Assembly (NCBI GenBank): GCA_016190205.1
Contig: JACPQZ010000076.1
Location: 68,632-116,166 of the forward strand
Length of the DNA stretch: 47,535 nt
Direction: 5' to 3'
From: Candidatus Omnitrophota bacterium
GTDB lineage: Bacteria > Omnitrophota > JACPQZ01
Positions 956 to 47,535 of this stretch are shown here, piece by piece. Under the pieces are notes generated by a model, which did no database searches, was not told the origin of the DNA, and was given only the letters and a program-made list of their open reading frames with translations. How positions within the stretch are numbered: the first letter of the stretch is position 1; each line of letters begins with the position of its first letter. The translations under genes and the position numbers were made by a program.

Positions 956-1080
956 CGGTTATCGGTGTTCGGTGATCGGTTATCGCAAGAAAAAGCAATA
1001 TGCCGGGTCTTCGGCTTTCAGCCGTCGGCCATCAGCCTTCGGCTTTCAGCTGACGGCCGACAGCGCGTGCGATTACCGAC
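956..1080. repeat. Heptamer array: GATCGGT/TATCGGT and TCAGCCT families
   Basis: This array fills the gap between clpX and the DUF2442 gene. Positions 956-987 carry degenerate 7-bp repeats of the GGTTATC/GGTGATC type. Positions 1009-1066 carry TCAGCC-type heptamers followed by their inverted complement, so they can fold back. A short GATTACCGAC remnant at 1071-1080 could be the returning arm of the outer family. The same two-family nesting recurs at 1639-1830 and 17288-17478. Confidence 0.85.
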
Positions 1081-1099
1081 AAAGAGCGAAAAAACCTCC

Positions 1100-1390
1100 T
1101 CAAGCAGCTGATTTTCCCTGCTTCTTGTCTTTCTGAAAACTTAAGGGGTAAACCGAAAACTTGAGAAGAGCTCCAACAGATAGATCTTCATCGATTTTAG
1201 GCCAATGGATACCGATCCCACGACCGATCAACCTGCATTGCTTTCGCTGGGCCGATGTTGCCTTACAGAGACGAGGAAACCAAGCAAGGGGTACCTCCAG
1301 TTTCCTCTCATCCACCAGATAAACAATCAAGGCATGGGCCGTGACCTGAATCTTTTCAGCACGTGGCTCATGAGACACGGAAGTACTCAT
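1100..1390 (-). CDS. DUF2442 family protein (possible toxin-antitoxin partner)
   Basis: This 96-residue protein resembles the DUF2442 family, with the typical HALIVYLVDERKLEVPLAWFPRL core around residues 15-40 in which a short strand precedes a PLAWFPRL-like motif. DUF2442 genes are commonly paired with DUF4160 genes in putative toxin-antitoxin-like modules, and here the DUF4160 gene lies immediately upstream and overlaps by about 23 nt. I chose the ATG at 1390 because GAGG stands about 9 nt before it; five codons of further open frame exist upstream. The biochemical role is unknown. The C-terminus runs to the edge of a heptamer array. Assignment to the family is likely, function is not established. 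Confidence 0.75.
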   Translation of the reverse strand: MSTSVSHEPRAEKIQVTAHALIVYLVDERKLEVPLAWFPRLCKATSAQRKQCRLIGRGIGIHWPKIDEDLSVGALLKFSVYPLSFQKDKKQGKSAA

Positions 1391-1607
1391 TCCACTTTTC
1401 CTCAATTTCTTCTTTACGCCGCTGAACGATTTCCCTGATCTTCCTCAATTCAGAACTGGAAAATTTATAGTTTCTATCCAGGCGGACCGGATTCAGCCAA
1501 AACTTGGCATACTTCTCTGCCTTTTCAATATGAACATGCATGGGTTCAGCGCCTTCATTGCTGAAAAAGAAAAATCGGAACCCACGAACGATAAATACCG
1601 TTGGCAT
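1368..1607 (-). CDS. DUF4160 family protein
   Basis: This small protein of 79 residues has the DUF4160 pattern: an N-terminal hydrophobic strand (VFIVRGFRFFFFSNEG), then EPMHVHIEKAEKYAKFWL, and a helical C-terminus rich in Lys, Arg and Glu. The family is best known for sitting next to DUF2442 genes, as it does here, and such pairs are suspected to be mobile toxin-antitoxin-like modules. No catalytic residues are established for the family. The pair stands alone between heptamer arrays, with no clear promoter visible to me. A housekeeping role cannot be excluded. Confidence 0.78.
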   Translation of the reverse strand: MPTVFIVRGFRFFFFSNEGAEPMHVHIEKAEKYAKFWLNPVRLDRNYKFSSSELRKIREIVQRRKEEIEEKWNEYFRVS

Positions 1608-1638
1608 GTTTTGCGTACCGGCATTGCATAACCTTTGT

Positions 1639-1830
1639 CCGGTTATCGGTGTTCGGTGATCGGTTATCGCAAGCGTCGTAAGCTATCAGCTGTCAGCCTT
1701 CAGCCATCAGCTATCTGCTTTCAGCTGACGGCTGACGGCTGAAAGCAGAAAGCCCGTTCTATTTCTTTTCTTGCAATAACCGATCAACGATGACCGATCA
1801 ACGGATTGCGATCACCGATGACCGATTCCC
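1639..1830. repeat. Composite heptamer element: GATCACC family enclosing TCAGCCT family
   Basis: This is a nested repeat with left arm GGTTATC/GGTGATC heptamers at 1639-1671, an inner TCAGCCT array at 1682-1715, its inverted complement GGCTGAC/GGCTGAA at about 1722-1746, and an outer returning arm of ACCGATC-type heptamers at 1777-1830. The 46-bp block 1666-1711 recurs at 17305-17350 with one mismatch. The whole region could form one long branched hairpin. Confidence 0.88.
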
Positions 1831-1856
1831 GAACCGGTGGCTTTTTCGTTGAATAC

Positions 1857-2570: not shown

Positions 2571-3452
2571 TCAGCGACAAAAACTGGACCCAAGCGCCTT
2601 GGCCACAAAAAAACGCGCGGGTCCAGCACCCTGGCTACCCAACTGGCTGCGCAGACGGTCGCGCGTGCGAACCGCCTCCTCTTTCGAAGTAAATAGGGCA
2701 AAAACAGAAGGTCCGCTGCCGGACATGCATACGGATTGAACGCCGATGGAACGCAGGCAGTGGATGAGCCTTCCCACCACCGGTTTTAAGACCACCGTGA
2801 CTTTCTGTAAGTCGTTATGTAGCAATTGGATAATGTCAGAGAGCGGCTGAAGAATCTTACGCGGCATTCTAGCACCCAACACAGGACTTGTCAAGAATGG
2901 CCCCATAGACCCTATATACGAATATATCATATCGGTGCGCACCGGCACGGAGGGGGTTACGATAAGCGCCCAAAAGGGCGCACGCAAGTCAGCGGGCACG
3001 ATCCGGTCACCCCTCGCGAGCCCCCAGGCGCTTCCACAGCCGGACACAAAAAAGGGGACGTCCGCCCCGATGGCCCGGGCCTCCTCGTTCAAAACCTTCC
3101 TCGGCAAACGCAGATTCCAAAGACGGTTGAGTCCCAAGAGGGTTGAGGCGGCATTGGAGCTCGCTCCGCCCAAGCCTGCCGCCACCGGGATGCGTTTTTT
3201 GAGAAAGATTCGAACCCCCTGCCGGCCCCTCGTGAAACGCTCAAGCCGCCTCGCCGCCGCGACGCACAGATTGGTCCCGTCGCGCGGGACCCCGGCGGCC
3301 GATGTGGAAATGGAGACGCCTCGCGGTGCCTGCTCCAAGATAATCTCATCGCAGAGATCGACGAGTTGAAAGAGGGTGCGGATCTCGTGATACCCGTCCG
3401 GCCGTCTCCCCAATACCTCGAGCCGCAGGTTGATCTTGGCAGGAGACTTTAT
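2571..3452 (-). CDS. ispE: IspE, 4-diphosphocytidyl-2-C-methyl-D-erythritol kinase, apparent ATA start
   Basis: IspE is the GHMP kinase of the non-mevalonate (MEP) isoprenoid pathway. The frame shows PAKINLRLEVLGRRPDGYHE at the N-terminus, the ATP-binding glycine-rich loop AAGLGGASSNAAS and the C-terminal GSGPSVFAL motif. The first canonical start (TTG at 3413) would remove PAKINL, which is conserved. Upstream, the frame contains no ATG, GTG or TTG back to its stop. The best fit is ATA at 3452 within ATAA, overlapping the TAA stop of the TPR gene and giving 293 residues beginning (M)KSPAKINL. This looks like an ATGA overlap whose G became A. The function is secure, the start is inferred. Confidence 0.9.
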   Translation of the reverse strand: MKSPAKINLRLEVLGRRPDGYHEIRTLFQLVDLCDEIILEQAPRGVSISTSAAGVPRDGTNLCVAAARRLERFTRGRQGVRIFLKKRIPVAAGLGGASSNAASTLLGLNRLWNLRLPRKVLNEEARAIGADVPFFVSGCGSAWGLARGDRIVPADLRAPFWALIVTPSVPVRTDMIYSYIGSMGPFLTSPVLGARMPRKILQPLSDIIQLLHNDLQKVTVVLKPVVGRLIHCLRSIGVQSVCMSGSGPSVFALFTSKEEAVRTRDRLRSQLGSQGAGPARFFVAKALGSSFCR

Positions 3453-5005
3453 TCGGATGCTTTTAACGGATCTTTCTCCAAGCGGCTCTTTAAGGCTGCC
3501 AGCTTTTCCTGAACCTTACTTTGCCCCGGATCCAGCTTCAGGGACTGCTCCCAGTGCTCCTGGGCCTGGGACCAGAGCTCGAGTTGATTATACATATCTC
3601 CCAAGTGATCTTGGATCACGGGGTCATCGGGCATGAGTTCGCCCGCGCGCTCCAGCCACTTCCGGGCATCCTCCCACATCCCCTTCTTAAAATACACCCA
3701 TCCCAGGCTGTCCACGTAGGCCCCGTTATCTGGCTCGAGCTTAAGGGCCTGCTGAATAAGCTCCAGGGCTTCATCCAGATGCATCCCCGCCTCTGCGTAC
3801 ATATAACCCAGGTAATTGTAGGCATCGGCGTTTTCCGGATTAACCCGGATGGCGCTCTTAAACTCCTCCGCCGCCTTCTCCTTGTCACCCATGCGGTCAT
3901 GCAGGGCGCCCAGCCGGAAATAGACATAATCATTCGTGGATTCGGCGTCCTTGGACTCGTTGAGAAACTGAACCGCCTCCTCATTTTGACCGAGCTCCGC
4001 ATGCGAAATCCCGAGGAGGAAACTCACCTCGTAGTTTTTTCCCGCAAGACCCCGCGCCTTCTCCAACACCCCCACGGCCTCTTCATAGCGCCGCTCCTTT
4101 AAGAGAAGGTAGGCCAGCTCGATGAAGCCGTCCACATGGTCCGGCTTGAGCTCCATGAGAAGTTTGTACTGCTGGATGGCCTCTTCTACCCGCCCGGCCT
4201 GGTAGTACATCTGCCCTAGATGATGGTACACCCTTAAATTCAGGGGATTGACCTTGAGCACCTCCTCGTACTGGGCGATGGACCTGTCCTTTTCGCCCTG
4301 CATCTCATAGATGACGGCAAGCCCCAGGCGCGCCTCCACATAGCCGGGCTTAAGTTCTACGGCCTTGTTGAGCATTGAGAGGGCGGCATCATAGCGGTTC
4401 ATCCGGCTAAACAGGATGCCCAGATTAAAATAGGTGACGGGCTCTGTCCGGCCCGCCGCGATTATTTTTTCATAGACGGCCACGGCCTGCGGCAGCTGGT
4501 CTTCCATGACATAAAGATCCGCCAGCGCGGTCAAGGCCTGTTCGTCTTGAGGCTCCTGCGCCAGGATCTTTTGATAATTCTCAATCGCCTTTGGGTACAT
4601 CTGCCGCGAAGTATAGAGAAGGGCAAGCAGAAAGAGGGGGCGGGTGTTACCAGGATCGAGCTCCTGACTTTTTTCCAGGGCCTCCACGGCCTCGTCAAAA
4701 CGGCCCATGCGAATGAGGCTCGCGCCCAACCGCAGGTGAATGATGGCATTGTCAGGATCGAGGCGCAGGGCCTCCTCGTAAGCATCTATGGCCGCTACGG
4801 TATTGCCGCGGTTGTCGTGCAAAAGGCCGCGCGTGTAGCTGGCCCAGGCCCGAGTCTTGTCGGTATCCGTCTTACCGGTCTTGCGGATGCCCGCGCATCC
4901 GGGCGCGAGGAGGGTGACCAGTATTAGGAGGGAAGCAGCGATTCGTACTGCGTACTGCGTACTGCGTACTGCGAGAGTCGACAGTCGACAGTCGACAGTC
5001 GACAA
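3449..5005 (-). CDS. TPR-repeat lipoprotein with start region inside heptamer repeats
   Basis: From the proposed TTG at 5005 the product has 518 residues. A hydrophobic segment around residues 22-33 is followed by a lipobox-like APGC, with Cys near residue 37, suggesting export and lipidation. The rest is a continuous array of roughly twelve tetratricopeptide repeats (patterns such as AIDAYEEALRLDPDNA), a scaffold for protein-protein contacts. No ATG exists near the signal peptide. The TTG has GGAG seven nt before it; GTG codons at 5020 and 5026 are alternatives. The frame stays open to a GTG at 5221, but that extension is pure heptamer sequence. Residues about 4-21 are encoded by GTCGACA and GTACTGC repeats. 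Binding partners are unknown. Confidence 0.8.
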   Translation of the reverse strand: MSTVDCRLSTLAVRSTQYAVRIAASLLILVTLLAPGCAGIRKTGKTDTDKTRAWASYTRGLLHDNRGNTVAAIDAYEEALRLDPDNAIIHLRLGASLIRMGRFDEAVEALEKSQELDPGNTRPLFLLALLYTSRQMYPKAIENYQKILAQEPQDEQALTALADLYVMEDQLPQAVAVYEKIIAAGRTEPVTYFNLGILFSRMNRYDAALSMLNKAVELKPGYVEARLGLAVIYEMQGEKDRSIAQYEEVLKVNPLNLRVYHHLGQMYYQAGRVEEAIQQYKLLMELKPDHVDGFIELAYLLLKERRYEEAVGVLEKARGLAGKNYEVSFLLGISHAELGQNEEAVQFLNESKDAESTNDYVYFRLGALHDRMGDKEKAAEEFKSAIRVNPENADAYNYLGYMYAEAGMHLDEALELIQQALKLEPDNGAYVDSLGWVYFKKGMWEDARKWLERAGELMPDDPVIQDHLGDMYNQLELWSQAQEHWEQSLKLDPGQSKVQEKLAALKSRLEKDPLKASE

Positions 5006-5219
5006 CCTGCGACTCCGCACATCCACGGCTAGCCTATCACCCCTGCTCCTTCTTGCTTCTTCCTCCGTCTCTCGGCAGACCGTGAACTGTGGACTGTAGA
5101 CAGCGGACAGTGGACCGTGGACCGTGGACTGTGGACGCACAACGCACAACGCACCACGCACCACGCACGACGGGGGATTTTCGGCATGCGATCCCCGATC
5201 CCCGATCCCCGATCCCCGC
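4944..5219. repeat. Five-family heptamer array upstream of and within the TPR lipoprotein start
   Basis: Successive 7-bp arrays are GTACTGC at 4944-4974, GTCGACA at 4977-5005, GTGGACT/GTGGACC at about 5080-5136, CGCACAA/CGCACCA at 5136-5170 and GATCCCC at 5189-5219. Each is tandem with a period of 7 and few mismatches. The array lies between hisG (stop at 5223) and the lipoprotein signal peptide and partly codes for its N-terminus. It is the densest mix of families in the window. Confidence 0.9.
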
Positions 5220-5222
5220 ACG

Positions 5223-7302: not shown

Positions 7303-7312
7303 GGCACCTCGT

Positions 7313-7526
7313 TCGTACTGCGTACTGCGTCGTGCGTACTGCGTAACGTCTGGGCGAGCAGGATTCGTACAGCGTTAGGCATGCGACGATTAGCGTAGAG
7401 CGTAGAGCGTATAGCGTAGAGGAAAGGGTTTTACTCTATACGCTATCCGCTATCCGCTATCCGCTATCCGCTAAACGCTATCCGCTAAACGCTTCACGTT
7501 CCACGCTGTACGCAGTACGCTGTACG
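7313..7526. repeat. Nested heptamer element: GTACTGC outer, GCGTAGA/GCTATCC inner
   Basis: The left arm 7313-7375 contains GTACTGC heptamers and a non-repeat core (GTCTGGGCGAGCAGG). It is identical over 63 bp to 43116-43178. The inner part is AGCGTAG-type repeats at 7393-7423 facing CGCTATC/CGCTAAA repeats at 7439-7494, and an outer returning arm ACGCTGT/ACGCAGT at 7498-7526. The geometry is arm, arm, inverted arm, inverted arm. It fills the 227-bp gap between larB and larC. Confidence 0.92.
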
Positions 7527-7529
7527 ATC

Positions 7530-12498: not shown

Positions 12499-12522
12499 AG
12501 CGCTCTCACGAAGGGGATCGTC

Positions 12523-12560
12523 CCACGTCTCACGTCCAACGTCCAACTTCCTACGTCCCT
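12523..12560. repeat. Short heptamer array, CACGTCC/AACGTCC family
   Basis: Five to six degenerate 7-bp units (CACGTCT, CACGTCC, AACGTCC, AACTTCC, TACGTCC) lie in the 91-bp gap between gatA and gatB. There is no clear inverted partner nearby, so this may be a young or decayed array. Confidence 0.7.
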
Positions 12561-12589
12561 CTTCGCTCCTCCCTCCTCTCTCATGCTTG

Positions 12590-14488: not shown

Positions 14489-15334
14489 CTAGGAAAGCGC
14501 CTTAAATGCTCGTGCCAACACGCTGTATTCCACAAGTGAAAGTTCTTCGGGTCTCTTACCGGAGTCCATCCCCAAGTTCTGCAGAAACTTCTGAATGTCG
14601 CCCTTCTTAAAAGCCGGTGCGAAAAGGCCGGAGAGGGCGTTGTCGATGCGCTTGCGCCTATGCTGAAAGGCTGTCCGCACGACCAATCGAAAGGAATCCA
14701 GGTCCTGTTGAGAGACCCGGGGCTCGGGGAGGGGCGCGAGCTTTACGAAAGCTGATTCGACCTGCGGGGCCGGGTAAAAGGCACGCGCGGGTATAGTAAA
14801 AAGTGTGCGCGCTTCAAACCACACCCCCAAAGAAAGCGTAAGGACTCCGTAGTCTTTGTTCCCCGGCTGTGCCGCGATGCGCTCCGCAACCTCGCGCTGC
14901 ATCGTAAGCCACACGCTTTTGAAAAGCGCGCGAAATTTTAGCAGTTGAAACAGAATGGGAGTCGTGATGTGGTAGGGCAAGTTACCGATGGCAAGTGCCG
15001 CAGGAGACACGAGCTCCGCGAGGTCACAGTCCAAAAAATCCGCCTGGACCACGCGGACGCGCATATTGCCGGCAAAACGCTCCTCAAGATGCCGGGCGAA
15101 GGCCCTGTCCTTCTCGATCGCGACTACCGTCGCGCCGCGCTCCGCGAGACGTTCCGTAAGAATCCCCGTCCCCGCCCCGATTTCGAGGACGCTGTCCCCT
15201 GCACGTACCCCCGTGGCGTCCACGAGCCGTTCCCTGATAGCAGAGTCAATGAGGAAACTTTGGCTCCAGCGCTTTTTTGGATAGACCTTAAGCGCCCTTA
15301 GGGTTTTTCTAACTTCTGCTTTGATGAGGCTCAT
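14489..15334 (-). CDS. rsmA: RsmA (KsgA), 16S rRNA dimethyladenosine transferase
   Basis: RsmA dimethylates two adjacent adenosines near the 3' end of 16S rRNA during small-subunit maturation. SAM-binding motif I LEIGAGTG, acidic motif AIEKDRAFA and the catalytic IGNLPYHIT motif are present, with the C-terminal FRLVVRTAFQHRRKRIDNAL helix region. The product has 281 residues. Its ATG overlaps the stop of the preceding TMTC-like gene as ATGA, so it is translationally coupled to it. A hairpin terminator follows. Confidence 0.96.
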   Translation of the reverse strand: MSLIKAEVRKTLRALKVYPKKRWSQSFLIDSAIRERLVDATGVRAGDSVLEIGAGTGILTERLAERGATVVAIEKDRAFARHLEERFAGNMRVRVVQADFLDCDLAELVSPAALAIGNLPYHITTPILFQLLKFRALFKSVWLTMQREVAERIAAQPGNKDYGVLTLSLGVWFEARTLFTIPARAFYPAPQVESAFVKLAPLPEPRVSQQDLDSFRLVVRTAFQHRRKRIDNALSGLFAPAFKKGDIQKFLQNLGMDSGKRPEELSLVEYSVLARAFKALS

Positions 15335-17271
15335 GGCTTTGAGCCACCCAGTTCAAGGGCCTTCGCAAAATGTTCCATCGCCTCGTCATGCCTTCCTTCC
15401 TCTTGCAGCACCATGCCGAGGTTGCCGTGTACGCGCGGATCGTCCGGCATAAGCTCCAGCGCCCGGTGAAGAGACTTAAGCGCCCGCTTGCTGTCACCTT
15501 TCTTTGCCCACGTAGCCCCCAGGTTATTGTGCGCCTCCGCAAGATCAGGTTGAAGCCTGACCGCCTCCTCAAAGTGCAGGATGGCATCGTCCAGGTTTTC
15601 CTCGCGGGCCAGGGCATTGGCCAGATTGTAATGGGCCATCACGGAATCAGGCTGAAGGCGGAGGGCCTCGCGGTATTCGGCGATCGCTGCCTCCACGCGA
15701 CCCAGCTTTAAGAGCGCATTCCCCAAATTGTAATGGGCCTCCACATGCGCGGGGGTAATGCGGACGGCCTCCTTCAGAGGCCCCAGCGCCTCCTCGAGCC
15801 TCCCCACTTCGCCCAAGGCTATCCCCAAATTATTGAGCGCTGCGGGATAATCGGGCATGAGCTTTATCGCCTTCTCATACATGGGAATTGCCTCATTAAA
15901 ACGCCCCTCGCTCGCGAGAGCCACCCCGAGGTTATAGTGAGCCCGGGGGTTAATGGGCCACTTCGAAATCGTGTCCCGCCAGATGGTTATCGTGCTCTCA
16001 TAATCTAAGTTGCGGCTGGCCGTTACGAGCCCCCATCCCCCGCCCAGAACGATGACCAAGATATATGAGATCCATCGGCGGCCCGCAAAACCCTTCGGGT
16101 CGCGGGCCAGCCGCGCGGCGGGGGCGGTCATCAGGCCGAAAAAATGATCCACCCCCACCACCCCCAAAACGATGACCGCCGCCAGCGGGACATACATCCG
16201 GTGCTCGAAGGCAAGATCTGCCAGAGGGATGAAGCTCGAGGTAGGAAGCAGCATAAGAAAAAAGAACGCCCCCAAAAATCCGAGCCTTGGCCTCGTGTGC
16301 AGGGCCCATAACACCAGCGCGACGAGCACGATGACAGGAATGGAGGGAATGAGCACCTCCATAAAATGCCGGGGAACCCGCCAGGAATAATCCAGCACCA
16401 GGGGATGCGGCCAAAATACGAGCTTAAGGTAATGGAGGATGACACCCGGCTGGGCCGAGAGGTGCTGAAGGGGAGTCACATATTCATATGAAAAACCCGC
16501 GCTGGATGCGGCCGTGGGCGGCTGCGCCAGAAGGAATGCGGCAAAAAGAAACCACGTGGAGGCAAGGCCCAGATAAAGCGCCCGCCGGTTTTCCCATGCA
16601 TTGCGGAAAGAGCCCGCCACACTGCGCCGCGGACCGACGCCCGCCAGAAACGAGCGGTCATAACATAAGACAATAAGCGGGGCCATGACCATAATGAGTT
16701 TGCTCGCCATTCCCATCGCACAGGAAAAAATAGCTAAGGCGTGCCAGCCGCGGGGACGATTGCTCTCTGAAGCCCGTAATACGCTGTAAAGACACAGGAA
16801 AAGGAATAGGCCCATCATGGACTCGGCCCGCTGAATGATGTAAGTCACGCTCTCTGTTTGGAGGGGGTGAACCGTCCAAAGAAGGGTGACGATGAGAGCC
16901 AAATCCTTTGCCCGGCCCCCGTAACGAGCACGCAGAGGCTCCAAAAGGAGGGTGCGCCGGACAATACCGAATAATGTAAGCGCTGCCAAGGCATGAACCA
17001 GCAGATTAAACGCGTGATAACCCCAGGCACTTAACCCCCCCAGCGCGAAGTTTCCAGCCAGTGAAAGGTTGACGAGCGGTCTTAAACCCACGCTCCCCTC
17101 CACGCGCGAATTCATAGCCTCCCACGGCGGCCACAGCGTCCGGATGGAATCGTTGCGGACGATGTGCGCCAAATCGTCGAATACGAATCCGCCAGAAAAA
17201 CTTGTCCCGTAGGCTGCGAGCGCCGCTGCCACTATTAAAACGATCGGAAAAATATTGTGATTATCACGCAT
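15331..17271 (-). CDS. TMTC-like multi-pass membrane protein with C-terminal TPRs (paralog 1)
   Basis: The N-terminal 400 residues hold about ten membrane segments. A luminal or periplasmic loop, FSGGFVFDDLAHIVRNDSIR, near residue 27 resembles the GT-C glycosyltransferase first loop with a DD pair. HPLQTESVTYIIQRAESMMG and FEHRMYVPLA are shared with bacterial and eukaryotic TMTC (DUF1736) proteins, which are O-mannosyltransferases in animals. The C-terminal 230 residues are about six TPRs. The length is 646 residues. It lies next to a 575-residue paralog and is coupled to rsmA. A protein-glycosylation role is an inference from family. Confidence 0.85.
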   Translation of the reverse strand: MRDNHNIFPIVLIVAAALAAYGTSFSGGFVFDDLAHIVRNDSIRTLWPPWEAMNSRVEGSVGLRPLVNLSLAGNFALGGLSAWGYHAFNLLVHALAALTLFGIVRRTLLLEPLRARYGGRAKDLALIVTLLWTVHPLQTESVTYIIQRAESMMGLFLFLCLYSVLRASESNRPRGWHALAIFSCAMGMASKLIMVMAPLIVLCYDRSFLAGVGPRRSVAGSFRNAWENRRALYLGLASTWFLFAAFLLAQPPTAASSAGFSYEYVTPLQHLSAQPGVILHYLKLVFWPHPLVLDYSWRVPRHFMEVLIPSIPVIVLVALVLWALHTRPRLGFLGAFFFLMLLPTSSFIPLADLAFEHRMYVPLAAVIVLGVVGVDHFFGLMTAPAARLARDPKGFAGRRWISYILVIVLGGGWGLVTASRNLDYESTITIWRDTISKWPINPRAHYNLGVALASEGRFNEAIPMYEKAIKLMPDYPAALNNLGIALGEVGRLEEALGPLKEAVRITPAHVEAHYNLGNALLKLGRVEAAIAEYREALRLQPDSVMAHYNLANALAREENLDDAILHFEEAVRLQPDLAEAHNNLGATWAKKGDSKRALKSLHRALELMPDDPRVHGNLGMVLQEEGRHDEAMEHFAKALELGGSKP

Positions 17272-17287
17272 CGATGTTGGTCGCTCG

Positions 17288-17478
17288 TCGTTCGGTTATC
17301 GTTGATCGCAAGCGCCGTAAGCTATCAGCTGTCAGCCTTCAGCCATCAGCAAAAGCTGGAGAAAATAGCTGACGGCCGAAGGCAGAAAGCCCATAATATT
17401 TCTTTTCTTGCGATAACCGATCACCGATAACCGATCACCGAATTGCGATAACCGATCACCGATGACCGATCAACGATC
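17288..17478. repeat. Composite heptamer element: GATCACC family around TCAGCCT family
   Basis: This is the same architecture as 1639-1830: GGTTATC-type repeats, a conserved core at 17305-17350 shared with 1666-1711 (one mismatch in 46 bp), an inverted TCAGC partner at about 17371-17388, and a long returning arm of ATAACCG/ATCACCG heptamers at 17411-17478. The right end reads into the 3' end of the neighbouring TMTC-like gene and supplies its stop codon. Confidence 0.9.
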
Positions 17479-19197
17479 CCCGAACGTTGTGCTTTCCGAC
17501 GCTGCTCCGCCGTGTCCCGACATAAGAAGCACCTGTCCCAGGTTGCGCCCGGCTTCCTCAAGCGCGGGGTCAAGCGCCAGCGCCTCACGATAATACCCCG
17601 CGGCCTCCTTGAGCCTTCCCTGCTCAAAATAGACATTTCCCAGATTATTATAAGCCTGGGCATGGGCCGGGTTCGCCTCAAGCGCTTTTCTTAAATACTC
17701 CTCCGCTTCTGAAAACCGGCCGGTGCGGCTCAGCTCTCCCCCCATATTCGTCAGGGCATCCACATGCCTGGGGCTTAACGACAAGGCCTCCCGGTAGTGC
17801 TTCATGGCCTCGGCGGGATTTCTTCGCCCGCTTTCAACGAGCCCCAGCGCATTGTGCGCATCCGGGTATTCGGCCTTCAGCGCGAGCGCCTTTTTAAGAT
17901 GGTGAGCCGCCTCTTCGTACTGCGCCGAATGGAGGAGGGCGAACCCCAAGTTGTAGTGCGCCCTCGCGTTTGCCGGGCGCTTCTCTACGGTATCACGCCA
18001 GATCTCAGCGTCGCTTTGATAGTCCAGATTGCGAGCCACTGTAAGCACGCCCAGGACGAGGGCAGGGAGCATCGCAAAAGCTGAGCATAGAATGAGACGC
18101 CTTCGTTCCGGTTTCGCCCATTTGTTTAGTGCCCAATACACCGCGAGGGTCGCCAAAGTAGCGACGCAAGCCAGAGGCAAATACATGCGGTGCTCAAACG
18201 CGGGATCCGGTAATGGAATGAAACCGGACGTGGGGGCCAGAATAAGAAAGAAGGCGAGCCCGACGAAACCCACCCTCGGATGCGCAACAGTGGCCCACAG
18301 CGCGAGGACAAAAAGTGCACCGAGGATGAGACCCGGAATCAGCACCCCTTCGCGGGCCACCTGAAGAGGCCAGGCATAATCCAGCACGAGGGGATGAGGC
18401 CAAACGCACAGCTTTAAATACTTGAGAATCACTCCGGGCTGAAGGGCGGCATACTTCAAAGGCGTAAGCTCCGAATAGGTAAACCAGGTGCCCGTCCCGT
18501 GCCTTGCCTGTGCCTGAAGCATAAGCCCCGCAGCCAAAAGTGTCGTTGAGAAAAGGGCAAGGTAAAACCCAAGGCGCCGGGCGAGGGCTTTAAAAAATGA
18601 ACCTGTGACAAAACATCGGTCATAAAGAAGTATGGAGACGGGGACCGTTACCATGACGGGCTTGGCCAGCATGCCTAGGCAAGAGAAAAGAATGCTCGCC
18701 TTAAGCCACCCCTTCCGACCGCGAGGAGTCGTGCCGAGGATGAAGGCATAGAGCGCAGCCAGGTAAAAAAGCCCCATCATGGATTCGCTCCGCTGAATAA
18801 CATACGTCACACTCTCGGTCTGGAGGGGGTGCACGAGCCACAGGAGGGAGATCGAAAAGGCGGGTCCCCACCGGAGCGCGGTCCTCAAGATGAAAAACAA
18901 CAAAAAGGACGCAAGGACGTGGACCGCGAGATTAAACGCATGATACCCCCAAGGATTCAAGCCGCCCAGGCGGTAATTAAAGGCAAGGGACAAATTGAGG
19001 AGCGGTCTTGACTCGCGTTCCCCGGGAATCGCGAAGAGGGTCTCCCACAGAGGCCACAGTTTACGGATGGACGGATTTTTTACAATGTAGCTTTCGTCAT
19101 CAAAGACGAAATCGCCTGAAAAGCTGTTATGGTAAGCGAGGAGGGCGGCCACGAGAAGGAGGATGAGCGAAAGGGCTGTGCCGCGAGTCGCACGCAT
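17470..19197 (-). CDS. TMTC-like multi-pass membrane protein with C-terminal TPRs (paralog 2)
   Basis: This 575-residue product has the same plan as its downstream neighbour. A first hydrophobic segment is followed by FSGDFVFDDESYIVKNPSIR, then HPLQTESVTYVIQRSESMMG, roughly ten membrane helices, FEHRMYLPLA and four to five TPRs at the C-terminus (AHYNLGFALL, ALNNMG-like units). The family fold is GT-C glycosyltransferase; dolichol- or polyprenyl-linked sugar would be the expected donor. The last residues (about TTFGDR) and the stop TGA lie in heptamer sequence, so the original C-terminus may have been replaced. The tandem arrangement suggests gene duplication followed by divergence. Confidence 0.85.
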   Translation of the reverse strand: MRATRGTALSLILLLVAALLAYHNSFSGDFVFDDESYIVKNPSIRKLWPLWETLFAIPGERESRPLLNLSLAFNYRLGGLNPWGYHAFNLAVHVLASFLLFFILRTALRWGPAFSISLLWLVHPLQTESVTYVIQRSESMMGLFYLAALYAFILGTTPRGRKGWLKASILFSCLGMLAKPVMVTVPVSILLYDRCFVTGSFFKALARRLGFYLALFSTTLLAAGLMLQAQARHGTGTWFTYSELTPLKYAALQPGVILKYLKLCVWPHPLVLDYAWPLQVAREGVLIPGLILGALFVLALWATVAHPRVGFVGLAFFLILAPTSGFIPLPDPAFEHRMYLPLACVATLATLAVYWALNKWAKPERRRLILCSAFAMLPALVLGVLTVARNLDYQSDAEIWRDTVEKRPANARAHYNLGFALLHSAQYEEAAHHLKKALALKAEYPDAHNALGLVESGRRNPAEAMKHYREALSLSPRHVDALTNMGGELSRTGRFSEAEEYLRKALEANPAHAQAYNNLGNVYFEQGRLKEAAGYYREALALDPALEEAGRNLGQVLLMSGHGGAASESTTFGDR

Positions 19198-26372: not shown

Positions 26373-26374
26373 TA

Positions 26375-26537: not shown

Positions 26538-26547
26538 CAGTTTACGG

Positions 26548-29231: not shown

Positions 29232-29264
29232 CTTGCACTCTGCACTCTGCACTATGCACTAGCA
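29232..29264. repeat. Short heptamer array, TGCACTC family
   Basis: Four tandem units (TGCACTC, TGCACTC, TGCACTA, TGCACTA) occupy the 52-bp gap between rpsK and rpsM. There is no inverted arm, so this array is one-sided. Confidence 0.85.
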
Positions 29265-29272
29265 TATGTCGC

Positions 29273-29749
29273 CTATTTCTCTTTCGAAGCTGGAGGAGCC
29301 GCCGCCTGCTTCGCAGGCGCCGTCTTAGGAGCGGGCGCTGCCTTTGCAGCCGAAGCTGCCTTGACTACGGTCGGTGCGCCACCCGCGCGGACACCGCCGA
29401 TCCTGGTCCGACGGCCTTTACGCGTCCGGGCGTTCGTGTGCGTCCGCTGGCCGCGGACCGGAAGCCCCTTGCGGTGCCGCATGCCCCTGTACGACCCGAT
29501 ATCAATCAGGCGCTTGATATTCTGTGCGATATCGCGCCTTAACTCCCCCTCTACCTTATAATCCTTCTGAATGATACCGGTGAGGCGCGAGACCTCATCT
29601 CCCGTCAGGTCCTTGGCACGGGTAGCCGGGTTGATATTTGCCTTGCTGACAATCTGCGCCGCCAGGACCCGGCCGATTCCATAGATATACGTCAGCGCCG
29701 TTTCCACGCGCTTTTCCCTGGGCACTTCTACACCCACTATTCTCGGCAT
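29273..29749 (-). CDS. rpsM: Ribosomal protein S13 with Ala-rich tail
   Basis: S13 sits in the 30S head and contacts P-site tRNA and the 50S subunit. [29 protein letters not shown] and [13 protein letters not shown] are conserved. I start it at ATG 29749, so the upstream open extension that covers rpmJ is excluded. The product has 158 residues; after [11 protein letters not shown] about 40 residues of Ala, Pro and Lys follow, which is more than the usual short basic tail that enters the decoding region. Confidence 0.96.
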
Positions 29750-29753
29750 ACGT

Positions 29754-29867
29754 TTATCCCTGTCTCTGTTTGTGCTTTGGATTGGAGCAAATGACCCGGA
29801 GTACACCTTTCCGGCGCACGATCTTGCACTGCTCGCAAATCCGTTTGACGCTCGCCCGTACCTTCAT
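29754..29867 (-). CDS. rpmJ: Ribosomal protein L36 (zinc type)
   Basis: This 37-residue protein reads [20 protein letters not shown] then [17 protein letters not shown]. The zinc ligands CxxC, C and H of the C+ form are all present. It stabilises 23S rRNA in the 50S subunit. The start ATG is at 29867 with the stop 4 nt before rpsM. It is too short to stand out in a standard frame list but is unambiguous. Confidence 0.97.
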
Positions 29868-29874
29868 AATACTC

Positions 29875-30172
29875 CTTCGTATCTCGTATCTCGTGAAGCG
29901 TATTTCGCAAACCATTTGCCGCAAGATAACAATAGCCGCTGGCAGCTCGTGTCGTGTGCCGTGAATCGTGGATCGTGATTCGAAAGTGTTCAAATCCGAA
30001 TCTCGAAATGCGAAGCACGAACAAATCTGAAGCGCGAAATTCGAAATTCAAAACCAGCCGTTTCGAATTTCGGACTTCATCTCATCGCTGGTTTCTTTTT
30101 TGCGATTCACGATCCACGAATCACAATTAACGAGATGGCGCTTCACGCTTCACGAACGACGAGCGACGAACA
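29875..30172. repeat. Nested heptamer-type array between infA and rpmJ
   Basis: This gene-free 308-bp gap holds TCGTATC/TCGTGAA units at 29877-29905, GTGAATC/GTGGATC/GTGATTC units at about 29959-29982, a central TTCGAAATTC-rich part with AT-rich inverted arms (about 29993-30085), the returning arm CACGATC/CACGAAT at about 30105-30125, and CTTCACG/CGAGCGA units to 30172. The repeats are more degenerate than elsewhere. The arrangement is again arm, centre, inverted arm. Confidence 0.78.
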
Positions 30173-33126: not shown

Positions 33127-33151
33127 ATCACCCACCGTCTCTTAAGCGTTT

Positions 33152-33224
33152 GTCGTGAGTGGTGCGTGGAGTGTGATGAGTCTTGTCTAAGTCACTCACC
33201 ACTCACCACACATCACTCATCACA
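33152..33224. repeat. Heptamer array, GTCGTGA / ACTCACC-CTCATCA family
   Basis: The left arm GTGAGTG/GTGCGTG/GTGTGAT lies at about 33154-33180 and the returning arm ACTCACC/ACTCACC/ACATCAC/TCATCAC at 33192-33224. It lies between rplO and secY in the spc operon. Confidence 0.85.
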
Positions 33225-35026: not shown

Positions 35027-35049
35027 GATTTCTACTCTTAAAGCTTTAC

Positions 35050-35275
35050 GCTTGTCGCTAGTCGCTAGATGCTAGTCGCTAGCAGAAAAGCAGTCGCTAG
35101 TGACTGGTCGCTAGCAAGAGTCGATAGACCACAGTCCATAGTCCACAAGCCAAACCGTGGACTGTTGACCGTGGACTGAGGACTACAGGCGCCCAGCGAC
35201 TTTTTTCTTGCCAGCGACTGGCGACCAGCGACTTTTTTCTTGCCAGCGACTGGCGACCAGCGACTAGCGACTAAA
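35050..35275. repeat. Nested heptamer array: GTCGCTA outer, GTCCACA inner
   Basis: GTCGCTA units at 35053-35115 are followed by CCACAGT/CCATAGT units at 35120-35148, the inverse GTGGACT/GTTGACC at 35155-35185, and CGACCAG/CGACTAG units at 35191-35275. Within the last part a 32-bp block (35194-35225) is repeated exactly in tandem (35226-35257). It fills the 253-bp gap between rplF and rpsH. Confidence 0.92.
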
Positions 35276-35279
35276 CCTG

Positions 35280-35681: not shown

Positions 35682-35703
35682 TCTATCCTCTCAATCGAAA
35701 CGC

Positions 35704-35779
35704 TTGTCGTGAGTCTTGTGTGATGGGTGGTGAGGCTTGTCATTCCTTATTCACCACACACCACTCATCACTCACCACC
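35704..35779. repeat. Heptamer array, GTCTTGT-GTGATGG / ACCACTC family
   Basis: A GTGAGTC/GTGTGAT/GGGTGGT arm (about 35707-35738) faces CACCACA/CACCACT/CATCACT/CACCACC (35752-35779). It lies between rpsH and rpsN. Confidence 0.82.
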
Positions 35780-35786
35780 GACGTAG

Positions 35787-35972
35787 CTACCAACTTGCTT
35801 TTGTGATGCCCGGAATCATGCCTGTCATGGCCAGTTCCCTGAAGCACAGCCTGCACAGCTTGAACTTGCGCAAGTAGCCGCGCACCCGCCCGCATTTCTG
35901 ACAGCGGTTGTAGGCCCTCACCTTAAACTTGGGCTTCCTCCGCTGCTTCACCATCAGGGATTTCTTTGCCAC
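35787..35972 (-). CDS. rpsN: Ribosomal protein S14, zinc type
   Basis: This is the 61-residue short (type Z) S14 with zinc ligands CQKC...CRLC around residues 24-43 and ending in [14 protein letters not shown]14 is in the 30S head next to S3 and S10. The short form is typical of many Gram-positive and deep-branching bacteria. Confidence 0.98.
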
Positions 35973-35999
35973 TTTTTACTCCTCAATTACCGCGTCGGT

Positions 36000-36083
36000 C
36001 GTGAGTCTTGTGTGATGTGTGGCGAGCCTCGTCTTTCTAACTCACTACTCACCACTCATCACTCACGACTCATCACTCACCAC
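36000..36083. repeat. Heptamer array, ACTCATC-ACTCACC family, overlapping the rplE 3' end
   Basis: GTGAGTC/TTGTGTG/ATGTGTG units at about 36000-36025 are followed by ACTCACT/ACTCACC/ACTCATC/ACTCACG/ACTCATC/ACTCACC at 36038-36083. Because rplE ends at 36073, the array runs about ten bases into that coding region and likely supplied its stop codon. Confidence 0.85.
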
Positions 36084-36663
36084 TTACCTTGTCGCCTACA
36101 GGTGCTTGGGCCGCCGTCTCCTGCCGGGCAAACGGCATCCCGAAGAGTTCAAGAAGCGTGCGGGCCACGGCGTCGTTTGCGGCCGTCGTCACAAACGTGA
36201 TATCCATACCCTGCGTCTGCTTTATTTGATCGGCCACAATTTCTGGAAATACGGTCTGCTCGCGTATCCCCAAGGAATAATTCCCTCTTCCATCGAAAGA
36301 ACGGCCGGATACCCCGCGAAAATCCCTCAAGCGGGGCAGCACCACGTGGATCAGCCTCTGCATGAATTCGAACATGCGCTCCCCCCGCAGCGTCACCTTA
36401 CACCCCAGGGGCATATCCTTTCGGATCTTGAACCCCGAAATCGATTTTTTCGCGCGGGTCACCAAAGGTTTCTGGCCCGTAATCCGGGCCAGATCCGCCG
36501 AGGCCTCGTCGAGTTTCTTGACATCCTCAACGGCCTCGCCTACACCCATGTTGACCACGATCTTCTCCAGACGCGGCACGGCGAGCGCATTTTTAAGGTG
36601 ATAGGTCTTCATGAGCTGCGGCACGATTGTTTTCCTATAATGCTCTTTCAAAACGGCCGGCAT
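36073..36663 (-). CDS. rplE: Ribosomal protein L5
   Basis: L5 is a 5S rRNA-binding protein of the central protuberance. [57 protein letters not shown] and [17 protein letters not shown] are conserved. I start it at ATG 36663, which shares its first base with the rplX stop (TAATG); six further upstream codons are open but belong to rplX. The product has 196 residues; the last 20 are variable and reach into heptamer sequence. Confidence 0.97.
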
Positions 36664-39327: not shown

Positions 39328-39436
39328 TGCTTGTCGCTTGTAGTCCACAGTCCGCAGTCGACAGTCCACGGATTGGCTTGTGGACTATGGACTGTGGTCT
39401 GTCGACTCATGCTAGCGACCAGCGACTAGCGACTGA
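39328..39436. repeat. Nested heptamer array: GTCCACA inner, GCGACTA outer
   Basis: GTCGCTT at 39331-39338, CCACAGT/CCGCAGT/CGACAGT at 39343-39369, returning GTGGACT/ATGGACT/GTGGTCT at 39381-39404, and GCGACCA/GCGACTA at 39413-39436. It is a smaller version of the element at 35050-35275. It lies between rpsC and rplV. Confidence 0.87.
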
Positions 39437-39894: not shown

Positions 39895-40012
39895 CCTGTC
39901 GCTAGTCGCTAGCAAAATAGGACCGTTCATAACGACTGACGAAGTTTTTGTTTGCCAGCGACTGGCGACCAGCGACTGCTTTTTGCCAGCGACTGGCGAC
40001 CAGCAACTGACG
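39895..40012. repeat. Heptamer array, GTCGCTA / CGACCAG family
   Basis: GTCGCTAG at 39898-39911 faces CAGCGACTGGCGACC blocks at 39955-39977 and 39987-40009, the blocks being direct repeats separated by CTTTTTG. It occupies the gap between rplV and rpsS. Confidence 0.88.
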
Positions 40013-41145: not shown

Positions 41146-41235
41146 TGTCGCTAGTGTCTAGTCGCTGGTCGCTAGCAAAATGAGTTGTTCATTAACAGTT
41201 GACGAGGTTTTTATTTGCCAGCGACTGGCGACCCA
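41146..41235. repeat. Heptamer array, GTCGCTA / GCGACTG family
   Basis: GTCGCTAGTGTCTAGTCGCTGGTCGCTAG-type units (41149-41176) face GCCAGCGACTGGCGACC (41217-41233). It lies between rplW and rplB. The middle is AT-rich (ATGAGTTGTTCATTAACAG). Confidence 0.86.
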
Positions 41236-41519: not shown

Positions 41520-41550
41520 GTCAAGCTATCCTTCTTCCACGCGAGCAATG

Positions 41551-41630
41551 CCTGTCGTGAGGGGTGTGTGAAGTGTGATGAGGGGTACGATTGTTTCATC
41601 ACTCATCACTCATCACTCACGACTCATCAC
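41551..41630. repeat. Heptamer array, GTCGTGA / ACTCATC family
   Basis: The arm GTCGTGA/GGGGTGT/GTGAAGT/GTGATGA (41553-41581) faces ATCACTC repeated about five times (41599-41630). It lies between rplD and rplW and reaches the rplD stop region. Confidence 0.88.
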
Positions 41631-42299: not shown

Positions 42300-42394
42300 T
42301 CGCTCGTTGATCGGTTATCGTTGATCGCAAGCCGATACCTATGCTTTTTTTCTTGCGATCACCGATGACCGATGACCGATAACCGATCCACGAA
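42300..42394. repeat. Heptamer array, GATCGGT-TATCGTT / ACCGATG family
   Basis: GTTGATCGGTTATCGTTGATCGCAAG at 42306-42331 faces GCGATCACCGATGACCGATGACCGATAACCGATCC at 42355-42389. It fills the gap between rplC and rplD. It is a compact version of the composite elements at 1639-1830 and 17288-17478, without the TCAGCCT insert. Confidence 0.9.
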
Positions 42395-43102: not shown

Positions 43103-43114
43103 GAAGAGACCTTG

Positions 43115-43275
43115 CTCGTACTGCGTACTGCGTCGTGCGTACTGCGTAACGTCTGGGCGAGCAGGATTCGTACAGCGTACAGCGTCGTGCGTACAGCGAA
43201 CGAAAACCCATTCTCTACTTTCACGCAGTACGCCGTACGCAGTACGCTGTACGCTGTACGCGGTACGCTGTACGT
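43115..43275. repeat. Nested heptamer element, GTACTGC / TACGCTG family
   Basis: Positions 43116-43178 are identical to 7313-7375 over 63 bp, including a non-repeat core. Then TACAGCG units (to 43198), a central GAAAACCCATTCTC block, and a returning arm of ACGCAGT/ACGCCGT/ACGCTGT units at 43223-43275. It lies between rplC and rpsJ. Confidence 0.92.
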
Positions 43276-43621: not shown

Positions 43622-43649
43622 CTTTCACCCTCTTAGCGAGCCCGGTCCG

Positions 43650-43775
43650 TGCTTCGTTCTTCGTTCTTCGTGCTTCGTGCTTCGTGCGTCGTGCGTCCCA
43701 CAGACTGCCGGGTAACGAGTGAGGGGATCTTTTTTAGCTGTTACGAAGCACGAGGCACGCGGCACGAAGCACGCC
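43650..43775. repeat. Heptamer array, GTGCTTC / ACGAAGC family
   Basis: The left arm CGTTCTT/CGTTCTT/CGTGCTT/CGTGCTT/CGTGCGT/CGTGCGT (43651-43697) faces ACGAAGCACGAGGCACGCGGCACGAAGCACG-type units (43743-43773). It lies between rpsJ and rpmG. Confidence 0.9.
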
Positions 43776-43957: not shown

Positions 43958-44053
43958 TTCGTACTGCGTCTTGCGTCGTGCGTACTGCGAAAGAAAAACC
44001 ATTCTCGTCCTTCACGCTGTACGCAGTACGCAGTACGCTGTACGCTTCACGCG
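43958..44053. repeat. Heptamer array, GTACTGC / GTACGCA family
   Basis: GTACTGCGTCTTGCGTCGTGCGTACTGCG units (43960-43989) face ACGCTGTACGCAGTACGCAGTACGCTGTACGC units (44013-44046). It lies between rpmG and tuf and ends at the tuf stop codon. Confidence 0.9.
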
Positions 44054-45234
44054 ATGATTTCACTGACTACCCCGGCCCCCACGGTGTGGCCGCCTTCGCG
44101 GATGGCGAAGCGCACTTCCTTTTCCATGGCGATGGGGGCGATGAGCTCGATCTCGAGGTCGATGTTGTCCCCCGGCATGACCATCTCGACCCCTTTGGGA
44201 AGGGTGGCCACCCCGGTCACATCCGTCGTGCGGAAATAGAACTGGGGCCGGTAGCCTGAAAAGAAGGGGGTGTGCCGGCCGCCTTCCTCCTTGGTGAGAC
44301 AATAGACCTTGGCCTTAAACTTGGTGTGGGGGGTAATCGTCCCGGGATGGGCCAAGACCTGTCCGCGCTGGAGGTCCTTTTTGTCGGTGCCCCGTAAGAG
44401 GACCCCCACGTTGTCCCCGGCCTGGCCTTCATCGAGGAGCTTGCGGAACATCTCGATGCCCGTGACGACCGTCTTTTTGGTGGGGGCGAGCCCCACGATC
44501 TCGATCTCTTCATTGAGTTTCACCTTTCCCCGCTCGATTCTCCCGGTGCCCACGGTGCCCCGTCCGGTGATGGAGAAGACGTCTTCCACCGGCATGAGAA
44601 AGGGCTTATCCGTCTGCCGCACGGGGGTGGGGACGTAACTATCGACCTTCTCCATCAGGGCCTCAATCCCCTTGCTCGCCTCGGCGTCTCCCTGCATGGC
44701 CTTCAAGGCACTTCCCCTTATGATGGGCACGTCCGAGCCGGGAAACTCGTATTTGGTCAAGAGGTCTCTCACTTCAAGCTCCACCAGATCCAAAAGCTCG
44801 GGGTCGTCGACCTGGTCCACCTTGTTTAGGAAGACCACGATGGAAGGGACTCCCACCTGACGGGCCAAGAGGATGTGCTCCCGGGTTTGGGGCATGGGGC
44901 CGTCGGGGGCACTCACTACCAGAATCGCTCCATCCATCTGCGCCGCGCCGGTCACCATGTTTTTGATGTAGTCGGCGTGCCCGGGGCAGTCCACGTGGGC
45001 ATAGTGGCGTTTGTCGGTCTGGTACTCCACGTGGCTCACCGCAATCGTGATCCCGCGCTCCTTTTCCTCGGGGGCATTGTCGATGGAATCAAAGCTTCTC
45101 ACCTCGCACAGGCCCTTCTTCGCCAAAACGGTCGTGATGGCGCTTGTCAAGGTAGTCTTGCCGTGATCCACATGCCCGATGGTGCCGATATTGATATGGG
45201 GTTTGGTGCGCGTGAATTTTTCCTTGGTGGCCAT
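44047..45234 (-). CDS. tuf: Elongation factor Tu
   Basis: EF-Tu delivers aminoacyl-tRNA to the ribosome. GTP-binding motifs [18 protein letters not shown] and NKVD are present, followed by the beta-barrel domains with [25 protein letters not shown] and FRTTDVTG. The length of 395 residues is standard. It follows fusA after a heptamer array of about 120 bp. Confidence 0.99.
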
Positions 45235-45258
45235 TATTAATCCTCCATGCTAGCTTTC

Positions 45259-45341
45259 CCCGTGCTTCGTGCCTCGTGCCTCGTGCTTCGTAACGGTTGA
45301 CGATGAACGAAGCACGATGAACGAAGAACGAAGCACGAACA
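45259..45341. repeat. Heptamer array, GTGCTTC / ACGAAGC family
   Basis: GTGCTTCGTGCCTCGTGCCTCGTGCTTCG (45261-45289) faces ACGAAGCACGATGAACGAAGAACGAAGCACG (about 45308-45340). It lies between tuf and fusA and is the same family as 43650-43775. Confidence 0.9.
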
Positions 45342-45359
45342 CATTATTTATGACTTAAT

Positions 45360-47438
45360 CTATGACTTAGCTACGATGACTTTCTCCGAGACATGCTTTG
45401 GAACCTCTTGATAATGATGCGGTTCCATGGTGTAAGTCGCCCGCCCTTGTGTCAGACTCCGGAGCGCTGTGGCATAGCCAAACACCTCGCTCAAGGGCAC
45501 AAACCCGTCGAGGATCCGCATCTTGCCCCGGTCGCGCATGTTGGTGACCTGTGCCCTGCGGGAATTAAGGTCCCCGATCACGTCACCCATGTTCTCCTCC
45601 GGAGTAATGACCTCAATTTTCATAATGGGTTCCAAAAGAACGGGGTTCGCCTTCTTCGCCGCCGCTTGAAAGGCAATGGAGCCGGCGATCTTAAACGCGA
45701 TATCCGAAGAATCGACCTCGTGATAGGAACCGTCCGTAAGCGTGACGCGGAAATCGATCACCGGGTACCCGGCCAGGGGGCCAGTTCTCAAAGCCTCTTC
45801 CACACCTTCCTCCACAGAGGAGATATACTCCTTCGGGATTCTCCCGCCTGTAATCTTGTCCACGAATTCAAAACCAGACCCCGCCTCCAGCGGCTCGAGT
45901 TCGATGTATACATGGCCATACTGGCCGTGTCCCCCCGTCTGCCGGATGAACTTGCCCTCCTGCTCCACTTTCTTGCGGACGGTTTCTTTGTAGGCCACCT
46001 GCGGCTTCCCCACATTGGCATCCACCTTAAACTCCCGCAGCATGCGGTCTTTCAAGACGTCGAGGTGGAGCTCCCCCATCCCCGAAATAATGGTCTGGCC
46101 GGTCTCACGGTCAGAACGGATCCTGAAGGTCGGATCCTCGTCCGCCAGGCGGCTTAAGGCTACCGAGAGCTTATCCTGATCCGCCTTGGTCTTGGGCTCG
46201 ATGGCCATGCTGATCACGGGGTCCGGAAAGTTCATTGACTCCAGAACGATCGGATGGTCTTCATCCGAGAGGGTATCGCCTGTCTTTACATCCTTGAGCC
46301 CCACGCAGGCCACGATGTCGCCCGCGAAGGCCTCCGGATAGTCCTCGCGCTTGTTCGCATGCATGAGGAGCAGCCGGTTGATCCGCTCCCTGCTGTTTTT
46401 CGTCGCGTTATACACGTAAGACCCCGACTTAAGCATCCCTGAATAAACCCGCACGTACGTGAGCTTCCCCACAAAAGGATCGGCTGAAATCTTAAAGGCC
46501 AGCCCGCTGAATGGTTCATCGTCACTGGGCTTGCGCTTGTCGGCCCCGTTTTGGGAACCCGGCCGCGTTCCTTCCACCGCCGTGATGTCGCTGGGCGCGG
46601 GGAGGTAATCCACCACGGCATCCAGAAGGGGCTGAACCCCCTTGTTTTTAAATGACGATCCGCAGAGGACGGGCACCACCTGGCTTTGAACAGTCTGCCT
46701 GCGCAGGGAAGCTGCGATTTCTTCAATGCTCGGCTTTTTATCTTCGATATAATATTCCATCATACGCTCATCATGCTCGGCCAGACGCTCTATGAGATCG
46801 TGATGCGCCTTTTCGGCCTCCTTTTTAAACTCGGCCGGGATTTCGATCACGTCATATTGGGCACCTAGGGTCTCATCGTGATAAATGAGGGCCCTCATCC
46901 GCACGAGATCAATGACGCCCTTGTGCTGGTCTTCGACCCCCAATGGAATCTGGATGGGCACGGCATTCGACCCCAGGCGGTCCCGCATCTCCTCCACCGC
47001 CTTCCAAAAGTTGGCCTCGATGCGGTCCATCTTGTTCACAAACGCAAGGCGCGGCACCTTGTACCGGTCGGCCTGCCTCCAGACGGTCTCGGACTGCGGC
47101 TCCACACCACCCACACCGCAAAAGACGCCCACCGCTCCATCCAGGACCCTTAGGGAGCGCTCCACCTCCATCGTAAAATCTACGTGGCCGGGCGTATCGA
47201 TGATGTTGATGCGGTGCTCGCGCCAAAAACAGGTCGTGGCGGCAGAGGTAATCGTGATCCCGCGCTCCTGCTCCTGCACCATCCAGTCCATGGTGGCGGT
47301 CCCGTCATGGACCTCACCCATCCGGTGCAGCTTCCCCGTGTAATAGAGAATGCGCTCCGTGGTCGTGGTCTTGCCCGCATCGATATGGGCGATGATTCCG
47401 ATATTTCTCGTTTTCTCTAAGCTATATTGTCGCGGCAT
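45360..47438 (-). CDS. fusA: Elongation factor G
   Basis: EF-G drives translocation and, with RRF, ribosome recycling. The P-loop [15 protein letters not shown] at residues about 18-32, [12 protein letters not shown] and the domain III/IV sequences [14 protein letters not shown] and [21 protein letters not shown] are conserved. The length of 692 residues is typical. The upstream rpsG/rpsL of a str operon would lie beyond the right edge. Confidence 0.99.
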
Positions 47439-47441
47439 ATG

Positions 47442-47535
47442 ACATCCGTGATTCGTGATTCGTGAAACGTAGTTGACGGCTTGAGTAACCAGAAACCAGC
47501 AACCAGATACCAGAAGATTCCAGAGACCAGATACC
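47442..47535. repeat. Heptamer arrays GTGATTC and ACCAGAA upstream of fusA (runs off the window)
   Basis: GTGATTC/GTGATTC/GTGAAAC units occupy 47446-47469 and ACCAGAA/ACCAGCA/ACCAGAT units occupy 47488-47535, reaching the window edge. The second family is that of the SurA-like signal region. Any inverted arm lies outside. Confidence 0.85.

Follow-up and report, generated by a model that had tools for sequence, protein, structure and literature searches.

The 47,535-nt stretch of contig JACPQZ010000076.1 from an Omnitrophota genome, hereafter the window, carries tandem heptamer arrays in its intercistronic gaps, and these are more aptly regarded as hairpin elements, copied, nested and imperfect, than as arrays independent of one another. 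In each element an arm A is followed by a spacer and an inverted arm B; the heptamers repeated in tandem in the arms keep a constant core and leave one or two positions free. Heptamers that face each other are anti-matched, which leaves a mismatch in almost all of them. Many intercistronic gaps, including most of the non-overlapping ones in the essential ribosomal-protein operons, contain such an element. Why heptamers dominate the long-unit repeats of bacteria is an old open question; the repeats here are the arms of copied hairpins under a sequence rule, a paired core with a mismatched free position, and this rule can be checked by sequence analysis across phyla and by transcript mapping.

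Period, position and copies

The genome assembly comprises 76 contigs (1.65 Mb, completeness 92.8%), and counts described as genome-wide refer to a sample of 1.09 Mb taken as separate stretches. Genes in this sample were identified with a crude home-made call, which gives a coding fraction of 0.865 and misses some small genes. Arrays in the window were called with Tandem Repeats Finder (TRF) at a low threshold, and their grouping into families is our own.

Within the window, 31 runs of at least 10 identical bases are found at lag 7, while other lags, the harmonics 14, 21 and 28 excepted, mostly have 0-1. By the same measure the 1.09 Mb sample has 223 runs at lag 7; most non-harmonic lags have 7-19, although lag 24 reaches 37. 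With a looser detector, lag 7 yields 411 segments covering 13.9 kb, compared with 4-61 segments for lags 4-6 and 8-12. Perfect lag-7 tandem runs extend to 31 matches. The autocorrelation check suggested in an initial annotation of this DNA therefore places lag 7 far above other periods at both scales, and that annotation's estimate of at least 26 loci and about 17 unrelated families is borne out by the period-7 TRF rows, which fall at 26 gap loci spanning 955 to 47515 and represent at least 17 unit families. Its statement that the period is exactly seven is correct as to the dominance of lag 7, but not throughout, because the arms of one family, named after its ACCAG core, contain a fixed 3-nt jog.

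Approximately 85% of array bases are intergenic, with arrays starting a median of 10 nt past the upstream stop and ending a median of 29.5 nt ahead of the next start. The proposed confinement to gaps and gene ends is upheld, some arrays extending into coding ends, as at the C-terminus of L4 (41596-41630). The elements lie between co-directional genes, and adjacent genes in the sample are nearly all co-oriented (783 same-strand pairs versus 20 convergent and 21 divergent). That arrays fill most gaps is true of the ribosomal stretch, but genome-wide they occupy 126 of the 325 same-strand gaps longer than 60 bp.

Dispersed copies are evident. The element at 43116-43274 has copies elsewhere of approximately 140-159 bp at 86-91% identity. 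The sample contains ACCAG-family arms at 59 places, and adjacent arm pairs are inverted in 25 of 25 cases, in keeping with the arm-spacer-arm layout first noted. The arm, of about 58 bp, is built as four xxACCAG units, the 3-nt jog and three further units; in 45 arms the core is about 93-100% conserved in most columns, with the dinucleotide between cores variable. The nesting described in the initial annotation is likewise confirmed: a compound with TCGTGAA arms outermost, ACCAG arms in the middle and CGAAATT arms innermost occurs at about nine places with identical order and right-hand junction, and no outer element lacking its inner one was found at that junction. As dispersed copies, inverted ACCAG arms and identical nested junctions are all observed, copying accounts for much of the spread. 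This modifies the original suggestion of an enzyme that counts seven with no common ancestral repeat: many unrelated families do share the period, which still requires a 7-nt mechanism, but an independent origin at each site is not supported, given the dispersed homologous copies.

The gaps themselves are enlarged relative to those of 20 phylum-level relatives, none of them from the same genus, family, order or class, so the gain and loss of arrays cannot be finely dated. Between EF-Tu and Map, array-bearing gaps measure 93-253 bp, whereas the relatives' medians are mostly -4 to 50 bp: 177 bp against -4 for S17-L14, 93 against -1 for L4-L23, 133 against 8.5 for L22-S3, and 253 against 11 for S8-L6. 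The relatives lack the CGTACTG dimer, and their corresponding stretches contain almost no lag-7 arrays. The exception to the latter is the genome designated G009, which has its own inverted TAGTAGG/CCTACTA arrays (L371, L447).

Mismatches and predicted hairpins

The relationship between the two arms of an element is not that of a simple palindrome. In the ACCAG family, of 77 heptamers compared with the one facing them only 2 are perfect matches, where 7.8 would be expected (permutation p = 0.0003); between same arm types of different elements the rate of perfect matches is 13%, and 11 of 12 elements pair two different arm types. Of the 95 mismatches at the free dinucleotide, 80 set A opposite T in one order or the other, giving A.A or U.U in the folded strand. 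In the CGTACNG family, the two arms carry the same free letter at a frequency of 0.298, compared with 0.459 by permutation (p = 0.004), and on the mRNA strand, whichever way the arm is oriented, this letter tends to be A (156 units, against 50 with T). These and the related p-values treat elements as independent. A comparison of longest perfect runs between elements is inflated by oppositely oriented copies, and the test of facing heptamers controlled for arm type is therefore the one to rely on. Across all families the spacing of mismatches peaks at 7, 14 and 21 (z of 10.6, 8.9 and 7.7), a pattern also seen in other phyla. The layout called strictly palindromic in the initial annotation is hence inverted but imperfect, the longest perfect inverted run per pair ranging from 5 to 20 bp with a mode of 12-13 (83 pairs).

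Once transcribed, these gaps would fold into long hairpins interrupted by mismatches at intervals of roughly 7 nt. The transcript strand of four gaps was folded, with z-scores of -3.3, -9.7, -11.4 and -2.7; the S8-L6 gap is predicted to give a single long stem (-138 kcal/mol, z -11.4), and the ACCAG element at 23728-23906 a ladder whose pairing is broken about every 7 nt (z -9.7). Profile searches for RNase III and SbcD covered 38 genomes of the phylum, including this one. No RNase III was detected in the genome itself with TIGR02191 or PF14622, which incompleteness of the bin could explain, and the enzyme is present in 27-28 of the 38. Five genomes in which it was not detected have low lag-7 counts, except G009, one of these; its absence alone is therefore no predictor of arrays. 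SbcD scored above the cut-off in none of the 38, so SbcCD was rejected as the selective agent and cannot account for the difference from relatives. It is in a genome with no detected RNase III, then, that essential ribosomal operons tolerate the repeated insertion of long hairpins.

Loci in the window

The loci are given here in order of position, with strand indicated where it is minus. TRF places TCGGTGA and AGCYNTC-type arrays at 955-1064. A nested element at 1640-1826 has a CGGTKAT arm, AGCYNTC arms and an inverted CGATNAC arm, and its second copy forms the compound element at 17280-17485; 1651-1832 is 83.5% identical to 17290-17469 over 182 bp, and the copied element extends over 1640-1832. 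The gap between a TPR-protein gene and its upstream gene (4944-5218) holds CGTACTG, CGACAGT, GACCGTG, ACGCACA and CGATCCC arrays. At 7303-7527 a CGTACTG element, the left part of which is 97% identical to 43110-43178, holds nested inverted AGCGTAG and CTATCCG arms. A CGTCCCA array lies between gatA and gatB (12519-12582), and inverted AGTCGCT and AGCGACC arms are found at 19205-19333. The ACCAG-family element at 23728-23906 consists of a CGGGAAG array, arm B with the unit order given above, a 20-nt spacer and the inverted arm A, and successive gaps at 29234-30171 carry TGCACTC, TCGTATC, CGTGAAT, CGAAATT and CGCTTCA arrays.

In the ribosomal stretch, inverted GTGAGTG/CACTCAC arms occupy the L15-secY gap (33144-33223), nested GTCGCTA and AGTCCAC elements the S8-L6 gap (35027-35279, minus strand), and TCACCAC and ACTCACC arms flank S14 (35698-36088). 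These are followed by a CGTACTG-family element between S17 and L14 (37346-37522, minus strand), inverted GTCCCAA/GACCTGG arms between L16 and L29 (37975-38064), and an AGTCCAC/TGTGGAC element between L22 and S3 (39342-39434) that is an 89% inverted copy of 35091-35197. Inverted arms are also found in the S19-L22 gap (GTCGCTA/CCAGCGA, 39898-40009), the L23-L2 gap (GTCGCTA/AGCGACT, 41147-41233) and the L3-L4 gap (CGGTTAT/CGATNAC, 42304-42387). The GTGATGA/TCATCAC element of the L4-L23 gap (41546-41630) is the one that encodes the L4 C-terminus and its stop. The CGTACTG/CGTACAG element between S10 and L3 (43103-43291, minus strand) has copies dispersed genome-wide. Beyond it are inverted arms CGTGCTT/ACGAAGC (43648-43773), CGTACTG/ACGCTGT between EF-Tu and the next downstream gene (43960-44046) and CGTGCCT/ACGAAGA between EF-G and EF-Tu (45261-45339). 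A CGTGATT array followed by an ACCAG-family arm at 47447-47535 is one end of a compound element cut at the end of the window and contig.

Other repeated sequence was observed in the same stretch. Between an Mfd-like helicase gene and rplQ lies a dispersed repeat without heptamers (25844-26540, within 25820-26545), of which at least 10 copies of about 530-700 bp are present at 75-92% identity, several at contig ends; a fold of -420 kcal/mol (z -16.5) is predicted for its minus strand, and it has no Pfam match. Positions 44028-44162 recur with 99% identity where contig C71 ends (L106:12968-13102), which suggests either that EF-Tu has a second gene or that the assembly overlaps here. The only match to Rfam models in the window was a tRNA. 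The 3' part of tRNA-Gln (2050-2120) is apparently duplicated near 1859 and also inverted near 2017-2028 (region 1859-2068), and these tRNA-derived pieces enclose a palindrome with a 79% copy at L103:120-273. Three TPR-repeat proteins are encoded at 3449-5221, 15331-17271 and 17470-19197, the first scoring above the MamA equivalog cut-off (216 versus 200 bits), which probably reflects generic TPR similarity.

Explanations and known repeats

We lean towards reading the arrays as arms belonging to imperfect palindromes that are extragenic, dispersed and non-autonomous, here termed heptad-arm hairpin elements. Heptamer tracts would grow and turn over by 7-nt slippage, and whole elements may be mobilised by copying into the gaps just behind stop codons. 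They could persist either because the hairpin is tolerated or, as we infer for their cellular function, because it is useful as an intercistronic mRNA hairpin that protects 3' ends and separates cistrons; the regular mismatches might prevent the stem, in RNA or DNA, from behaving as an extended perfect duplex would. Several observations weigh against this. No target-site duplication beyond chance is seen at 15 sites (flank identity 4.0 versus 3.7 nt expected, with one 8-bp case), and the three Y1 transposase genes inspected show little linkage to the elements. The p-values for anti-matching are optimistic, as copies share ancestry, and the preference for A on the transcript strand in the CGTACNG family is absent from the ACCAG family. 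Furthermore, the hairpin foot of the repeat at 25820-26545 contains about 21 perfect pairs, so perfect duplex is not strictly excluded from this genome. A wider proposal is put forward tentatively: that this is a bacterium-wide intercistronic class in which selection keeps the heptad ladder (a paired core with one homo-mismatch per seven bases), that hairpins resistant to or independent of RNase III serve as a general cistron spacer in many operons, the ribosomal ones included, and that the architecture may have evolved repeatedly, from unrelated sequences, in many phyla.

It seems unlikely that these are ordinary heptanucleotide simple sequence repeats (SSRs), produced by local slippage with a 7-nt preference and inverted by template switching, with neither an element nor a function. 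The long perfect lag-7 runs and the lag-7 excess in many phyla agree with that explanation, and PMC4679880 and PMC4692102 describe heptanucleotides as the most abundant long-unit class in many bacteria and cite proposals of a 7-nt polymerase slippage or footprint. However, dispersed copies with common non-repeat spacers and junctions, seen for two families, and the predominance of the inverted layout argue against it, and template switching at quasipalindromes should yield matching arms, whereas those observed are anti-matched. Arrays of protein binding sites in DNA or RNA, in which a protein would recognise the core and the free positions would act as linkers, as proposed for Geobacter metallireducens, would explain the strong core conservation and free dinucleotides; paired opposite-strand tandem hepta- and octamers are annotated there as global regulator sites (PMC2700814), and CspB is described as binding with one protein to each heptamer (PMC4679880). 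This is nevertheless improbable, as some 20 families would demand some 20 readers of one spacing, and the location behind stops, the nesting and the anti-matching would be left unexplained. Similarly little weight is given to elements resembling repetitive extragenic palindromes (REP) and bacterial interspersed mosaic elements (BIME) moved by a RAYT/TnpA-REP-type Y1 (HUH) transposase. Many-copy extragenic palindromes and four Y1_Tnp (PF01797) genes are present, but two of the three genes inspected have no nearby heptamer array, the other having a CGTCCCA array about 110 bp away (G000:C66:4946-5197). No GTAG/CGTC foot tag was seen in arm alignments by eye, no full motif search over all families having been made, and the arms far exceed the 20-40 bp of REP given in PMC3733652. 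An artefact of assembling a short-read metagenome bin is scarcely credible: there are 76 contigs, some with ends inside elements, but long contigs contain most of the arrays internally, between unique flanking sequences, the arrays differ from gap to gap, and others of the same kind occur in isolate genomes such as that of Moorena bouillonii and in a complete Chitinophagaceae chromosome.

The AGCYATC trimer was found in 78 viral-contig stretches and, among species genomes spanning many phyla, in at least 116 stretches. At the loci so selected, a sample biased by the query, further heptamer families are common too, and neighbouring arrays form 77 inverted and 26 direct pairs. The idea of a 7-nt mechanism is not new, earlier proposals being reviewed in PMC4679880 and PMC4692102, and heptamer excess and paired arrays are already known. 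Neither the build, hairpins with nested and mismatched heptamer arms, nor its recurrence in other phyla seems to have been reported before; the literature searched, in which most subscription journals are missing, contained no account of nested arms or of the facing-mismatch rule.

Like the heptanucleotide long SSRs of Mrazek et al. 2007, as reported in PMC4679880 and PMC4692102, the arrays are intergenic, occur in many phyla and have 7-nt units in excess over other lengths. Those repeats are described there as simple tandem tracts, whereas here the tracts form the inverted arms of imperfect palindromes, which have been copied to dispersed sites and stacked into nested compounds, and are not simple local tracts only. 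Degenerate intergenic heptamers with a conserved core are also known as Xanthomonas GGGAATC and Nostoc GGGGAYT (PMC4692102), the former including some convergent inverted arrays, but these are one G-rich family per genome, read as G-quadruplexes, and inverted pairs are exceptional in Nostoc. The short tandemly repeated repetitive (STRR) sequences of cyanobacteria and the TAACTGA repeats of Beggiatoaceae (PMC4679880) are intergenic tandem heptamers as well; they are mostly single-family and direct, those of Beggiatoaceae lying upstream of starts, while the present arrays are inverted and lie behind stops. Membership of STRR, direct repeats of filamentous cyanobacteria, does not apply to inverted pairs in an Omnitrophota host.

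A parallel in arrangement is provided by the paired sites of G. metallireducens (PMC2700814, Additional files 6-9), for which tandem 7- or 8-nt units in opposite-strand pairs are described, with several classes per genome, variable spacing and intergenic positions, all of which are found here. The classes there are few, with dozens of copies and one also intragenic, and the text consulted does not report the nesting, mismatch rule or ribosomal-operon location present in this genome. As dispersed extragenic palindromes, in high copy and in gaps behind genes, the elements resemble REP and BIME, and as short non-coding sequences with terminal inverted repeats and many copies they fit the type of miniature inverted-repeat transposable elements (MITE). 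They differ from both groups in showing no GTAG/CGTC tag by eye and no target-site duplication, and in having arms that are heptamer arrays of about 30-60 bp.

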